NCBI RefSeq assembly: GCF_023650955.1
Contig: NZ_CP098039.1
Location: forward strand, 992,001-1,056,000
Length of the DNA: 64,000 nucleotides
Direction: 5' to 3'
Source of the DNA: Thermosynechococcus sp. HN-54
Lineage (GTDB): Bacteria > Cyanobacteriota > Cyanobacteriia > Thermosynechococcales > Thermosynechococcaceae
Part shown: piece after piece, positions 4,916 through 30,537 of the stretch
How positions within the stretch are numbered: the first letter of the stretch is position 1
How the letters are laid out: the number at the start of each line of letters is the position of its first letter
The notes under the pieces: model-generated
The model's database searches: none
Told to the model about the DNA's origin: nothing
What the model saw: only the letters and a program-made list of their open reading frames with translations
Translations under genes and position numbers: made by a program

Positions 4916-6691
4916 CTAAAGCTGCGCCGCTGTGGCTCCCAACCAAGCTTCTAGATGTGCCCGCTGATTCGGCGTGGCATCGGCACGACACTGCACCTGA
5001 TAGCGGGGCTGGGGTTGCCCTAAAATCAACGCCCCAGTGTGCAATTGGTGATCATGAAACCATGTCAGGTGGATTGTCTCTCCCACTGAGTATTCCCGCA
5101 GTCGCTCTGACCAGTCCTCTGCCTTGACGCGCCAACCATTGAGGGCAATGATTTCATCCCCAGCCACCAAGCCTGCCTGTTCAGCGGGGGAGTCCCGTAG
5201 CACTGCCTTGATTTGAAGAGAACCATGTTCCTGCTTGAACTGAAGTCCCGTATAGGGCAACGCGTCTTGGGGCACCAGTTCCAAACCCACTTTAGCCAGC
5301 CACTCCTGAAGGGGGAGTTCCACCGTTTCTTCAATGAATTGCTCGCGCCATGTTCCCAAGTTTTCATCGGCAACGGTTTCAATCGTCTCCCACAACTCGT
5401 CGGGGGTGTAGCCTTGACCTGTTTCGCAATACTGCTGCCACAACCGCCGTAGGACATCGAGGAGCGATCGCCGGTGATTAAAGTTCAGGCGAATCCGCAA
5501 ATCCAACAGCAGTGCCACTAGCTCGCCCTTCAGGTAGTAGGACATTTGCGAGTTGATGCTATTTTCATCGGGACGATAGAGCTTAATCCACGCATCAAAA
5601 CTCGCAGCACTCAGAGACTGAACAAAACGACCGGGGGTGTGCAAGTAGCGATTGAGACTGTCGCTCAGCAGCTTCAGATAGGCCTCAGCATCAAATAGCC
5701 CCGCCCACAGGGGAATCAGTTGGTCAAAATAACTGGTCACCCCCTCCGCAAACCAGAGGCTCGTGGTGTAGTTTTCGCTGTCGTAATCAAAGATCTCAAA
5801 GGCTTGGGGGCGGATGCGTTTGACATTCCAGAGATGGAAAAATTCGTGAGCCACTAAACAGAGAAAGCGGCGATACTGCTCCGCTTGCTGAAAGCCAAAG
5901 CGATGAAAAATCAACGAGCAGCTATTGAGATGTTCGAGACCGCCATAGCCTTTGTGGGTAAGGTGCAAAATAAAGACATAGCGATCGTAGGGCAGGCCGC
6001 CAAAGAGACTTGTCTCTGTTTCAATGATCCGCTGAATGTCAGCGATCGCCCGCTGCGGCTCAAAATTGCCCTTGCCCCACACCGCCAATTCATGAGGTTT
6101 CCCCCCCGCCTCAAAGGTGTAAACAGCATGGGTGCCCACCTCAAAGGGACTATCCACCAGCAGGTCGTAATTTGCTGCCCAAAATGTGAAACCATCCTCG
6201 CCAAAGGGTTTGAGGGGAGTGGTCACCCGCCAATCGGGGGGCGCCTCAATGGTTACCGTTAGGGGCTGGTCGCGATACTCGGGCACATAGAGGCACACCG
6301 CTGCCGGATTGAAGTAGGCGTGGCTGCTATCAAAGTGGTTTGTGCGTACCGAGAGTTCATGGGCATAGATGGCATAGCGCACTTCCAGTTCTTGAGCGGG
6401 GGTGCAGGCCACCTGCCACTGATTTTTAGAGCACTTCCACCAGTCAAGGGGAGTACCGTCAGCGGCCGTTACCGTAAAGTCTTGAAGATGCCTCGCATAT
6501 TCGCGCACAAGGTAGGAGCCGGGCGTCCATACCGGTAAGTGCAGATCAAGGACATCAGTTTGCGGTGCCCTTAACCGCAACGTCACCCCTAAAAGATGCG
6601 TATGCCCCTGCTGGCAGTTAATCCTGTAGGCCATGGCAGGGGTCTGAAGAGAAGACTCAGAGGGGGAAGGATAAATGGTCGTATGCGTCAT
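4916..6691 (-). CDS. M61-family metallopeptidase with PDZ domain
   Basis: The 591-residue product carries the zinc site HEFFH at 282-286, followed by the family motif LWNVKRIRP and a third zinc ligand, the Glu of [10 protein letters not shown] near 316. A PDZ domain covers roughly residues 470-560, with [15 protein letters not shown] as its signature loop. The first part is a beta-rich domain typical of M61 glycyl aminopeptidases. These enzymes remove N-terminal Gly or Ala residues; the cyanobacterial substrate is unknown. I see no signal peptide, so a cytosolic location is likely. It lies 30 bp downstream of rpsJ, at the tail of the str operon, and 13 bp ahead of uvrC. Confidence 0.88.
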
Positions 6692-6721
6692 ACCCCTCAG
6701 TGTAGTGGACTTTGGCGACGC

Positions 6722-7036
6722 TTACAATTTCACCTCAATATCCACGCCCGCCGGCAAATCCAATTTCATCAGGGCATCAATGGTTTTGGGTGAGGGTTGG
6801 TAAATATCGAGAATGCGACGGTGGGTACGGGTTTCAAAATGCTCTCGTGAGTCCTTGTCCACGTGGGGCGATCGCAGGACGCAGTAAATTCGACGGCGGG
6901 TGGGTAGGGGAATCGGGCCAACGGGGGAAGCACCGGTTCTTTTTGCGGTATCCACAATGCGATCGCAGGAAGTATCGAGCAACCGATGATCAAAGGCCTT
7001 AAGGCGAATACGAATTTTCTGTTGTAAAGCAGCCAT
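6722..7036 (-). CDS. rpsJ: 30S ribosomal protein S10
   Basis: The 104-residue product begins [17 protein letters not shown] and contains [15 protein letters not shown] and the [11 protein letters not shown] segment, all diagnostic of S10, a head protein of the small subunit that also acts as NusE in antitermination. In cyanobacteria rpsJ sits behind tufA in the str operon rather than heading the S10 operon, and that order is seen here. The 101-bp gap to tufA contains an intrinsic terminator, so S10 may be made from read-through or from its own promoter. Confidence 0.97.
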
Positions 7037-7088
7037 AGAAATCTTCCTTACTTGTCAAGGTTCAGAGACAATCCGACAAACTTCAGAC

Positions 7089-7126
7089 AAAAAAAGGCCG
7101 CCAACACTACAAAAAGGCTAGCGGCC
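7089..7126 (-). terminator. Intrinsic terminator between tufA and rpsJ
   Basis: On the minus strand GGCCGC (7126-7121) pairs with GCGGCC (7101-7096) around a 19-base loop, and seven T residues follow (7095-7089). It begins 12 bp after the tufA stop and 53 bp before rpsJ, which could lower S10 expression relative to EF-Tu. Confidence 0.7.
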
Positions 7127-7137
7127 ATCAAGATCAA

Positions 7138-8367
7138 CTACTTCAGGATTTTGGAGACAACGCCCGCACCAATCGTACGGCCACCTTCACGGATGGCAAA
7201 GCGCATCCCCTGCTCAATGGCAATGGGCTGGATCAGTTCCACCGTCATTTTGATACGGTCACCGGGCATCACCATTTCAGCGGCGCTACCATCGTCAGCG
7301 GTGAAGGAAGTAATCGTACCAGTCACATCGGTGGTACGCACATAAAACTGCGGACGGTAACCCGCAAAGAAGGGGGTTTTACGGCCACCCTCTTTCTCAG
7401 TGAGCACGTACACTTCACCCTCAAATTGGGTGTGGGGCGTAATGGAGCCGGGCTTGGCAATCACCATTCCCCGTTCTACATCCTCTTTTTTCAGACCGCG
7501 CAGGAGCAGACCAGCGTTGTCACCGGCAATCCCCTCTTCGAGGCTCTTCTTGAACATTTCAATACCGGTGACGGTTGTTGTACGGGTTTCTCGCAGGCCC
7601 ACGAGTTCAACGGTTTCGTTGAGTTTAATACGACCGCGCTCAATGCGACCCGTAGCCACGGTACCCCGACCAGTAATGGAGAACACGTCTTCCACAGCCA
7701 TCAGGAAGGGCTTATCCACATCCCGCTCAGGGGTGGGAATGTAGTTATCCACGGCGTCCATTAGTTCGTAGATCTTATCTACCCACTCATTTTCGCCGCG
7801 TTGGGTTTTTGGATTGACGGTCATGGCTTCAAGGGCTTTCAGACCCGAACCACGGATGATGGGCACTTCGTCACCGGGGAATTCATATTCACTGAGGAGT
7901 TCCCGCAGTTCCAGTTCCACCAGCTCCAGCAGTTCTTCGTCGTCCACCATGTCCACCTTGTTCAGAAAGACAACGATGCTGGGCACCCCCACCTGACGAG
8001 CCAAGAGAATGTGCTCTTTGGTTTGGGGCATTGCACCATCGGTAGCGGCCACCACGAGAATGGCACCATCCATTTGGGCGGCACCGGTGATCATGTTTTT
8101 TACATAGTCAGCGTGGCCGGGGCAATCCACGTGGGCGTAGTGACGTTTCTCCGTTTCATACTCCACATGAGCCGTGTTGATGGTAATCCCACGGGCTTTT
8201 TCCTCAGGTGCAGCGTCAATTTCATCGTATTTGCGAGCCTGAGCTTTCCCTTGGGCGGCCAGTGTCATGGTGATGGCTGCGGTCAATGTGGTTTTACCGT
8301 GGTCAACGTGACCAATCGTACCAATGTTAACGTGGGGTTTGGTTCGTTCAAATTTAGCGCGTGCCAT
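7138..8367 (-). CDS. tufA: Translation elongation factor Tu
   Basis: The 409-residue product has the G1 motif GHVDHGKTT, the DCPGHADYV switch II segment, NKVDMVD as G4 and a GSGLKALE G5 region, followed by beta-barrel domains II and III. EF-Tu delivers aminoacyl-tRNA to the ribosome as a GTP complex and is recharged by EF-Ts, encoded at 31564. It lies 17 bp after fusA, and an intrinsic terminator follows it. The length matches cyanobacterial and plastid EF-Tu, slightly longer than the E. coli protein because of an insertion in the first domain near residue 190. Confidence 0.98.
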
Positions 8368-27791: not shown

Positions 27792-28334
27792 TCACACTTG
27801 ATCAAACAGTGTAATCTTGGCCAGAAGTCCTGCCACCATCAAAAACAGTGCCACCAGCAATGCCCAAAGGCGATTATCCGTTGAACTTTGGCGTTTTCCC
27901 AATTCCACCAATTGTTCACGATTAGTCTGCACTTCTAAGCGCACAGCCTCAATTTTGGCCTCCATTGTATTAAATTTCTCATCAACAGTCTTAAACTTTT
28001 CATTGATGGTGGCCTCCATTGTATTAAATTTCTCATCAACGGTCTTAAACTTTTCATTGATGGCGGCTTCCATTGTATTAAATTTCTCATCAACAGTCTT
28101 AAACTTTTCGTTAATAGTCGCTTCAATCGTGTTGAATTTTTGATCAAACCTTACTTCTATGGCATTCAGTTTTTCATCCACGATTTGGAATTTCTGATCA
28201 ATCGTGTTAAATTTTTCACGGATTTCCGCTTGGCCCACCTTCACTTCAAGGGTGAGTTCCGCCAGTTGCGACTGGATTGCTTTCATTGTGTCTAGGACTT
28301 CAGCGAGTTGCGATTGAGTGATAGGTTCGCTCAT
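27792..28334 (-). CDS. Tail-anchored coiled-coil protein, paralogue A (longest, with internal repeats)
   Basis: The 180-residue product has a short N-terminus (MSEPITQSQLAEVLDTM), a charged helical middle, and one C-terminal membrane helix (WALLVALFLMVAGLLAKI, about 157-174). Residues 75-128 are three consecutive copies of an 18-residue unit (NEKFKTVDEKFNTMEATI with one variable residue), preceded by degenerate copies. Eighteen residues equals one heptad plus one hendecad, which keeps a coiled coil in register. The C-terminal anchor puts the rod in the cytoplasm. It resembles DUF1640-like coiled-coil membrane proteins in architecture, but I do not recognise a function. AGGAG precedes the start. 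Two shorter paralogues lie immediately upstream. Confidence 0.7.
   Translation of the reverse strand: MSEPITQSQLAEVLDTMKAIQSQLAELTLEVKVGQAEIREKFNTIDQKFQIVDEKLNAIEVRFDQKFNTIEATINEKFKTVDEKFNTMEAAINEKFKTVDEKFNTMEATINEKFKTVDEKFNTMEAKIEAVRLEVQTNREQLVELGKRQSSTDNRLWALLVALFLMVAGLLAKITLFDQV
27951..28112 (-). repeat. Three tandem 54-bp in-frame repeats
   Basis: This segment encodes residues 75-128 of paralogue A as three 18-codon units that differ by a few bases each. The shorter paralogues lack these copies, so the tract is a recent expansion or a loss elsewhere. Confidence 0.85.
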
Positions 28335-28345
28335 AGGAGTCTCCT

Positions 28346-28660
28346 CTAAACTTGGTTAAATTGGTTAAACAGTGTGATCTTGGCCAGAAGTCCTGCCACC
28401 ATCAAAAACAGTGCCACCAGTAATGCCCAAAGACGATTGTCCGTTGAACCTTGGCGCTTTCCCAATTCGACTAATTGTTCACGATTGGTCTGTACTTCTA
28501 AGCGCACAGCCTCAATTTTGGCCTCCATTGTGTTGAACTTTTCACGGATTTCCGCCTGACCCACCTTGACTTCAAGGGTGAGTTCCGCCAGTTGCGACTG
28601 CATTGCTTTCATTGTGTCTAGGACTTCAGCGAGTTGCGATTGAGTGATAGGTTCGCTCAT
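28346..28660 (-). CDS. Tail-anchored coiled-coil protein, paralogue B (shortest)
   Basis: The 104-residue product is nearly identical to paralogue A at both ends (same first 42 residues apart from one substitution, same KIEAVRLEVQTNREQLVELGKRQ segment and membrane helix) but lacks the middle rod. The C-terminus is extended by a small duplication, FNQFNQV instead of FDQV. AGGAG lies upstream in a spacer that is repeated between A and B and between B and C, showing that the duplicated unit includes the leader. Function unknown. Confidence 0.68.
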   Translation of the reverse strand: MSEPITQSQLAEVLDTMKAMQSQLAELTLEVKVGQAEIREKFNTMEAKIEAVRLEVQTNREQLVELGKRQGSTDNRLWALLVALFLMVAGLLAKITLFNQFNQV

Positions 28661-28671
28661 AGGAGTCTCCT

Positions 28672-29052
28672 CTAAACTTTGTCAAACAGTGTGATCTTGG
28701 CCAGAAGTCCTGCCACCATCAAAAAGAGCGCCACCAGTAATGCCCAAAGGCGATTGTCCGTTGAACCTTGGCGCTTTCCCAATTCGACTAATTGTTCACG
28801 ATTGGTCTGTACTTCTAAGCGCACAGCCTCAATTTTGGCCTCCACAGTGTTAAATTTCTCATCAAATCTCGCTTCCATGGCATTCAGTTTTTCATCCACG
28901 ATTTGGAACTTCTGATCCATGGTGTTAAATTTTTCACGGATTTCCGCTTGACCCACCTTCACTTCAAGGGTGAGTTCTGCCAGTTGCGACTGGATTGCCT
29001 TCATGGTTTCCAGAACTTCAGACAGTTGGGATTGGGTGACAGGTTCGGTCAT
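28672..29052 (-). CDS. Tail-anchored coiled-coil protein, paralogue C
   Basis: The 126-residue product begins MTEPVTQSQLSEVLETM, slightly diverged from A and B, and has an intermediate-length rod (KFNTMDQKFQIVDEKLNAME and one further unit) followed by the shared C-terminal helix. It is first of the three in transcription order, 93 bp downstream of the nuclease-ParA gene on the same strand. That gap holds a possible -10 box TATAAA (minus strand, 29122-29117), so separate transcription is possible. Function unknown. Confidence 0.68.
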   Translation of the reverse strand: MTEPVTQSQLSEVLETMKAIQSQLAELTLEVKVGQAEIREKFNTMDQKFQIVDEKLNAMEARFDEKFNTVEAKIEAVRLEVQTNREQLVELGKRQGSTDNRLWALLVALFLMVAGLLAKITLFDKV

Positions 29053-29145
29053 GATTGATGTTCAGGGAGGGGTAACTTCATTTTAGGGGGAGGGAGCAAT
29101 TTCTGTTTTCAGATTCTTTATAAATCCTGTTACAAAGGTTGTCTG

Positions 29146-30537
29146 TTAGGTGAGGTCATCAGGAGCAGCTAAAGGCCGCAGATAGGTCTGCACTAATGTC
29201 TGATAGAAGCCTAAGACGCGCTTATCTTTGAAGACAGCAGGGACACGGGCAAAGGCGGCACGGGAAATAATGGCATATTCCGGAATGGCAAATACGCTTG
29301 TGTCATTGGCTTGATACTGCGGCCAAAAGTAAGGGGTGAGGTGGGGGAGTTTTTGAAGAATTCGTTCAATTTCGGCTTGGGCAACGGCCATCGCCTTATC
29401 AGTTGTGGGAGCACCATTAAAGAAAATAGGCAAAGGAAGGGGTCCGCCTTCGCGGCGCAATGTGTGAATTTCGTTAAAGAGAAATTGGTGAATCACCTGA
29501 GCCGCATTGTTGAGGGAGGAGAGATCGGTGTGGCGGGTGGGAATCAAAACGGCGTCACTGGCATACACGGCGCTCTTACTTAAAAAGAGCCAAGCACTGG
29601 GGCAGTCAATGAGGATGTAGTCGTAGCGATCGCGCAAGGGGGCAAGGAGTTCCCGCAGGCGGGTAATGGGTGGATTTTGGGTTTGCATCGCCTGAATGAG
29701 AATGCTTTGCAGTTGTGGGGCAGCGGGAATGACATCAAAGATATGGGCAGACTTGATACTGCTGCTGGTGCGGATGCGCAGGTCAAAAGGGCGAATCGTA
29801 GCCGTAATCGGCTGATCAGGGTTTTGCAGACAAGCCGCAAGGGTCGTACTTGTGGAGGTTAGCTCAAGGGCGCGGCTGAGATCCCCTTGGGGGTCGCAAT
29901 CAACGAGCAAGACAGCGGCATCTGCCACAGCAAGGGTGGCGCCCAAGTTAATCGTGGTGGTGGTTTTGCCCACTCCCCCCTTGTGGTTATAGATACAGAG
30001 GGTGGTGGCACGGGGGCGCGATCGCAAGCAGGTTTTGAGGTCTTCGATCATGCCCTCAAGGCGATCGCCCGTCAGTTCATAGTTGGGCGTGGCGGGATAG
30101 ACCAAGTGGCCATGGCGTTGAAAAAGCTGTAAATGGCGGGCATTCGTGATCAACCCCCAAGCGGTTCCTTGGCAGTGGCAACCACTGAGAAGTTGCCGTA
30201 GTTGCTGTAGAGCGCGGCTATGATGGGCAGAACCATTCTCAAGGTTCAAGGCCACGGTTTGACTGGGAGTATTGCGGGAGCGACGGGCAGGGGGTTTAAT
30301 CTCAACAATTAAATCAGGGTCAACTTGAGTTTGACAAAAAGGAGGCTGATGTTCGCGGGGGAAACGGGCTGCCACATCGGCAATGCCCGCACCTGTGTCA
30401 AAGGAAGATAGGCAATCGCGATCGCCAAAGCCCAACACACTCAGGAGCGGTCGGACAAAGTACTGCTCAATAACGGCTTCAGAGGTTTCGTCACCGTGAA
30501 TTTGTTGCCATTGCAATCGCAAGCGGGAAATATCCAA
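29146..30537 (-). CDS. Restriction-endonuclease-like domain fused to a ParA-type ATPase
   Basis: The 463-residue product has two parts. Residues 1-165 resemble the HsdR N-terminal nuclease fold: VIEQYFVRPLLSVLGFGD, Asp 54 in GIADV, PDLIVEIK with Glu 79 and Lys 81, then ALQQLRQLLSG and GTAWGLITNARHLQLF, the QxxxY-like and nucleotide-contact region. Residues 175-450 are a ParA/MinD-type ATPase with the deviant Walker A KGGVGKTT at 186-193, LLVDCDPQGDLS and the Walker B segment YDYILIDCPS. ParA proteins position plasmids, chromosomes or protein clusters. No ParB or centromere-like repeat is visible. The active-site acidic residues and lysine appear intact, but cleavage activity is inferred. Confidence 0.82.
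   Translation of the reverse strand: MDISRLRLQWQQIHGDETSEAVIEQYFVRPLLSVLGFGDRDCLSSFDTGAGIADVAARFPREHQPPFCQTQVDPDLIVEIKPPARRSRNTPSQTVALNLENGSAHHSRALQQLRQLLSGCHCQGTAWGLITNARHLQLFQRHGHLVYPATPNYELTGDRLEGMIEDLKTCLRSRPRATTLCIYNHKGGVGKTTTTINLGATLAVADAAVLLVDCDPQGDLSRALELTSTSTTLAACLQNPDQPITATIRPFDLRIRTSSSIKSAHIFDVIPAAPQLQSILIQAMQTQNPPITRLRELLAPLRDRYDYILIDCPSAWLFLSKSAVYASDAVLIPTRHTDLSSLNNAAQVIHQFLFNEIHTLRREGGPLPLPIFFNGAPTTDKAMAVAQAEIERILQKLPHLTPYFWPQYQANDTSVFAIPEYAIISRAAFARVPAVFKDKRVLGFYQTLVQTYLRPLAAPDDLT

Follow-up and report, generated by a model that had tools for sequence, protein, structure and literature searches.

ATPases of the ParA/MinD group are known for positioning cargo, and to our knowledge none of them is fused to a nuclease domain whose active site is conserved. 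Partition systems of the ParABS type (Soj/Spo0J, P1 ParA/ParB, SopAB) resemble the cassette described here in having a ParA with a deviant Walker A motif and, downstream of it, a ParB_N-like gene with a putative DNA-binding tail. The cassette differs in that its ParA bears an apparent HSDR_N-type nuclease domain, that its partner protein has neither the GERRxRA nor the LGKGLxxL motif and carries a Rho_N/SAP or helix-hairpin-helix region in place of the ParB helix-turn-helix, and that no centromere repeats were found near it. The adjacent gene for a ParB fold that marks ParABS is present in most relatives and absent from the locus of this study. With the N-terminus of the R subunit of type I restriction enzymes (HSDR_N/HSDR_N_2) the fusion shares the E...D...ExK core and the GxxxN segment, but its ATPase is of the ParA type and not an SF2 translocase, and at the loci examined it stands alone or with a ParB-like gene, without an hsdRMS operon. 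The ParB-CTPase fold has taken many forms on mobile elements, in some cases beside parA (PMC12704722, PNAS 2025); that survey used PF02195 at the curated cut-off, named a DUF3850 fusion as the sole one consistently next to parA and, by a term search, does not mention HsdR. ParB-like DNases occur in polyvalent proteins of phages and conjugative elements, there with no ParA association (PMC5512222). These are resembled by a viral protein on L193 that has a domain homologous to the partner, whereas in the cassettes the association with ParA is the rule.

The window, a stretch of 64,000 nucleotides, comes from Thermosynechococcus sp. HN-54, whose genome is a single 2.71-Mb contig. A sequence-only reading had placed at 29146-30537 an open reading frame that joins a restriction-type nuclease domain to a complete ParA ATPase. 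The frame was confirmed, though on the minus strand, and the positions given for Asp54, Glu79-x-Lys81 and the Walker A motif were exact (Table 1). The joining of the two domains was borne out by the Pfam AAA_31 match of the window protein and the HSDR_N_2 matches of its homologues, and the active-site residues of both domains are intact, as had been claimed, and conserved across homologues.

Table 1. Coordinates of the fusion gene, its parts and its 3' surroundings in the window
Feature	Position	Strand	Basis or remark
Nuclease-ParA fusion gene	29146..30537	-	TTG start at 30537, 463 aa, open throughout
HSDR_N/PD-(D/E)XK-like N-terminal domain (putative), residues 1-171	30025..30537	-	PF13588 matches in homologues; invariant residues
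Glu20 codon, conserved Glu early in nuclease domain	30478..30480	-	Invariant in 38 N-domains
Asp54 codon (predicted catalytic D)	30376..30378	-	Invariant in 38 N-domains; Gly in L017
Glu79-Ile80-Lys81 codons (ExK motif)	30295..30303	-	E79 and K81 invariant in 38 N-domains
ParA ATPase domain, residues 178-455	29173..30006	-	PF13614 AAA_31, E 3.9e-31
Deviant Walker A KGGVGKTT, residues 186-193	29959..29982	-	Sequence; K186 and K191 invariant lysines
93-nt gap 3' of fusion, where the ParB-like partner gene of relatives starts	29053..29145		No partner in window
Unrelated coiled-coil protein gene, next after gap	28672-29052	-	Neighbour of window fusion

The ATPase half was readily recognized. The AAA_31 match covers residues 179-350, and in a 25-sequence alignment of the fusions K186, K191, D213, D215 and the YDYI-x-ID box were invariant. 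The protein thus has the deviant Walker A with signature lysine, the Walker A' and the Walker B expected of a ParA and is predicted to be such an ATPase. Scanning contigs with a profile of the whole alignment caught the universal KGGVGKTT pattern and returned ordinary ParAs only; these matches then supplied the set of canonical ParBs used for comparison and the non-cyanobacterial genomes. In a phage collection, matches were likewise to the ParA domain only.

Pfam sees only this ATPase in the window fusion, with no direct match for residues 1-171. Of 23 homologous N-domains, however, 19 matched HSDR_N_2 (PF13588; best E 1e-7) and 13 matched HSDR_N, and two passed the HSDR_N_2 curated cut-off of 25 (L014 with 29.7, L292 with 36.8). 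The window domain is therefore assigned to the HSDR_N branch through its homology to these relatives, having no match of its own. Across 38 diverse N-domains, down to about 20% identity and with the degenerate member L017 left out, only six columns were invariant: E20, D54, E79, K81, G128 and N132. This pattern is as expected for an active PD-(D/E)XK site under selection. Among the 25 aligned fusions E20, E79 and Q112 were invariant, with D54 and K81 nearly so. The sequence-only reading had also proposed a QxxxY-like segment. Its glutamine is kept in close relatives, but the tyrosine is not, nor is Q112 in distant ones; position 112 is Gln in 22 of the 38 N-domains, which do not share a QxxxY motif. 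As an accessory motif, QxxxY characterizes type I R subunits and not the PD-(D/E)XK superfamily as a whole. AlphaFold2, run with two usable sequences (window and L192), gave a mean pLDDT of 35, and profile searches of the PDB with the N-domain and with the partner gave matches at chance level only. The restriction-endonuclease-like fold is accordingly putative, resting on sequence profiles and the motif, and it is from the conserved residues that we infer DNA cleavage by the fusion.

Homologues lacking the Asp/Glu/Lys residues, which that reading had named as the observation to count against it, were looked for and did not bear against the reading, as only a single degenerate member was found. 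This natural dead-nuclease variant, L017, has Gly54 and Thr81 in place of the catalytic Asp54 and Lys81 and retains its partner. The existence of L017, the position of the window N-domain below Pfam detection and the disappearance of the partner from the window family could suggest that the N-domain is a catalytically dead restriction remnant, or that the window gene is decaying after its cassette was broken up. We consider this very improbable and strongly disfavour it: the six invariant columns include all catalytic residues, dN/dS of the N-domain is 0.12-0.17 among genus members, and no copy in the genus has a stop codon, one genome's copy being split at contig ends.

Close homologues of the fusion, mostly full length and of 36-96% identity, were found in 39 of 386 cyanobacterial genomes and 28 of 142 genera; any match to the N-domain, unfused ones counted, extends this to 85 of the 386. 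When 20 weak N-domain matches were fetched, 17 proved to be ParA fusions again. Distant fusions lie on plasmids (Nostoc sp. UHCC 0870 unnamed10, Leptolyngbya boryana pLBA, Pseudanabaena) as well as on chromosomes. In 738 non-cyanobacterial genomes (349 from the phylum of Paraburkholderia, 345 from that of Flavobacterium and 44 mixed) the N-domain profile matched 36 genomes, with a ParA domain in none of the matching frames read, and no fusion was found. Within this sample, in which Bacillota, Actinomycetota and others are lightly represented, the fusion is cyanobacterial. No literature found, all of it open-access text, describes it. The window gene belongs to a widespread and seemingly undescribed two-gene system of cyanobacteria.

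The second gene lies directly 3' of the fusion in 32 of 40 close loci and in 16 of 17 sampled distant ones. The homologues establish the architecture, a predicted HSDR_N-type nuclease joined to ParA and followed by a ParB-like gene. The earlier statement that neither a ParB nor a centromere is visible thus holds for the window locus, where parS-like sites were not above chance, but not for the family, which normally has the ParB-like gene. In the close family the partner is on the same strand, encodes 220-280 aa and frequently overlaps the fusion by 4 bases, being otherwise a few bases away. Besides a ParB_N-like domain it has either a tail of the Rho_N/SAP type or its middle repeat in duplicate. 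Five members tested scored 14.8-21.7 bits with Pfam ParB_N against a cut-off of 26.3, so that the survey of PMC12704722 would miss them. In other subfamilies the cut-off is passed (L303 and L292, 31.7 and 29.6 bits); helix-hairpin-helix matches of their tail are weak and below cut-off. Profile-profile comparison (hhalign) of the partner with 18 canonical ParBs gave probabilities of 91% and 95%. That of close with distant partners gave 99.8%, and the two clearly form a single family. All seven plasmid records with the partner were cyanobacterial, with the fusion present in all those examined, and genomic partner matches mostly adjoin fusions; the partner occurs essentially only together with the fusion. 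As side observations, at L308:3922-6366 a single fusion precedes two distinct genes for ParB-like partners, which apparently belong to two subfamilies, and the viral protein mentioned above is a 1633-aa polyvalent protein (L193:4120-9021, on a 109-kb viral contig) with no fusion gene in the stretch fetched. Single-protein viral scans found nothing new.

The order of a ParA and then a ParB-like gene is what a partition module would show. In such a module ParA and the ParB-like adaptor would segregate their own replicon, the HSDR-type domain would bind or process DNA in place of the helix-turn-helix of type Ia ParA, and the window copy would be the leftover of an integrated plasmid. Several plasmids do carry the cassette, among them a 12.6-kb Pseudanabaena plasmid with no other annotated partition gene (the PLSDB tables being incomplete), and it is found on mobilizable plasmids, where co-resident plasmids of one strain hold divergent copies, as incompatibility would select. 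Two Nostoc plasmids with a close cassette, however, also encode ParM/StbA, and a third with a distant cassette also has ParA-ParB and ParG, so that the cassette is not the sole partition system of these three. No consistent iteron- or centromere-like repeats were present in the 450-bp flanks of 29 loci, although a short site, or one farther away, may exist. The GERRxRA box was found in 0 of 28 partners against 18 of 18 canonical ParBs, the latter by construction as they were selected by a GERRxRA-type motif, and the N-terminal ParA-activating motif LGKGLxxL in 0 of 28 against 12 of 18. Canonical CTP switching by the partners is therefore doubtful. Moreover, most copies of the cassette are chromosomal, the best-conserved part of the N-domain is its nuclease residues, and selection throughout a genus would not be expected for a partition ATPase that lacks its partner. 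Taken together, we regard a partition module as unlikely.

Some loci have further features of their own. The 450 bp upstream of the partner-less fusion on L140 (9335) contain a 9-mer minisatellite (ACGTCCAAC register) in 17 copies, and a different 9-mer is present in 7 copies upstream of the L182 cassette. On L293, L299, L301, L303 and L304 an extra ParA-like gene of about 300 aa (MxxIIATANMKGGVGKTTLTVNLATCLAK...) stands beside distant cassettes, in some cases divergently.

The fusion in the window is an orphan: a search of its whole genome at E up to 1 gave no homologue of the partner of the close family. In a tree of 34 fusions the partner-less clade (window, L009-L012) is nested among partner-bearing sequences, grouping with L014 at 100/97 support, from which it follows that the partner was lost once in this family; L034 represents a separate second loss. 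That the partner was lost and the nuclease kept argues against the pair being an obligate toxin and antidote. All 11 genomes of the genus carry the orphan, with identities of 76-96%, and in all four loci examined it adjoins rpsB-tsf. Against the nearest relative its dN/dS is 0.10; comparisons among genus members give about 0.1-0.2, and the values are low for the nuclease and the ATPase domain alike. Given this purifying selection and its presence in all genomes, the orphan gene is functional. Next to it, at 27792-29052 on the minus strand, three paralogous genes in tandem encode coiled-coil proteins that have a membrane-like segment at the C-terminus (MSEPITQSQLAEVLDTMKAIQSQ...) and differ in their internal repeats. 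With neighbour genes called, here as elsewhere, by a crude ORF picker, one copy of this family was called beside the fusion orthologue in L009 and none in L010 or L011. It is a rapidly changing tandem family, and as a replacement for the partner it was rejected because none stands beside the latter two orthologues.

The same genome holds a second, complete cassette of another subfamily (L177:6209-8323; fusion 6977-8323, partner 6209-6973, minus strand) at about 394.2-396.3 kb (C1), some 600 kb away from the window fusion. Matches to the partner of this second cassette occurred in 9 of the 11 genus genomes. A requirement of the window fusion for that partner is not supported, as G402 and G405 keep the orphan fusion with no match to it. 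A separate pair at L178:4793-6559, a ParA of 290 aa with a ParB-like protein that has an apparent C-terminal helix-hairpin-helix, is without a nuclease domain; its presence disfavours the window fusion as the ParABS of the chromosome.

The persistence of the orphan in these two genomes, its genus-wide presence, its place beside rpsB-tsf in the four loci examined, its low dN/dS and the housekeeping genes around chromosomal copies would all fit a function in chromosomal DNA metabolism (repair, processing of incoming DNA in competence, or upkeep of the chromosome in polyploid cells). ParA would then place the nuclease on the nucleoid, and the window gene would be an established form that needs no partner. 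The patchy occurrence of the family in the phylum speaks against this, as do its carriage on plasmids and a viral contig and the fact that nearly all other members have a partner. We judge such a role rather improbable.

Chromosomal cassettes have different housekeeping neighbours in each lineage, with no prophage or defence-island pattern found around them. Of about 30 loci, no more than two or three had defence-like AAA/TOPRIM genes nearby. In PADLOC-DB 2.0.0 the only matches were in the P-loop region, to PDC-M28B, and weak ones of coiled-coil type, to DndD/JetC. One full cassette is on a 58-kb viral contig. With a second partition system often present on carrier plasmids, no centromere-like repeats in the flanks searched and no defence-island signal, the function of the cassette has to be deduced indirectly.

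We tentatively favour, while holding it short of probable, that the window gene is the half that remains of a two-gene ParA/ParB-like DNA-targeting cassette of cyanobacteria, most likely one for exclusion or defence. ATP-bound ParA dimers would load on DNA, as other ParAs do, and dimerization would pair two nuclease domains. The ParB-like partner would recognize or clamp certain DNA and control ATP turnover, and cutting would thereby be limited to DNA without (or with) the mark of the partner. On chromosomes and mobilizable plasmids alike, the result would be that foreign or competing DNA is excluded or destroyed, as in plasmid or phage exclusion. In the window family the dedicated partner was lost once and the nuclease-ParA was retained genus-wide, where it presumably works by itself or together with some other DNA-binding partner. 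An outcome in which foreign or competing DNA is kept out or destroyed fits the distribution of the cassette best. The least certain step is what the cassette is for, with exclusion or defence preferred here to partition or housekeeping. A role in defence, exclusion or DNA capture, already suggested by the sequence-only reading, agrees with the conserved catalytic residues, the patchy phyletic spread, the occurrence of the same cassette in different neighbourhoods and its carriage on plasmids and a viral contig. It agrees less well with neighbours that are mostly housekeeping genes, with the lack of defence islands and with PADLOC matches that do not go beyond the P-loop. Presence in all genomes of a genus, here 11 of 11, is moreover unusual for a defence gene and counts against exclusion. 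Somewhat more guardedly, the cassette may serve lineage-specific DNA surveillance, in which the ParB-like adaptor would select DNA and the nucleoid-patterned ParA would deliver and activate the built-in endonuclease; this we regard as possible.

A cyanobacterial nuclease-ParA family with a ParB-like partner, often below the standard ParB profile cut-off, would tie the partition machinery to DNA restriction. Natural variants are at hand: complete cassettes, a form that lacks the partner yet is under selection, a member with a degenerate nuclease and copies on small plasmids. The cassette may bear on the barriers to plasmid establishment in cyanobacteria. If the reading as DNA surveillance is true, a ParAB machine would have been turned from DNA movement to DNA cutting.
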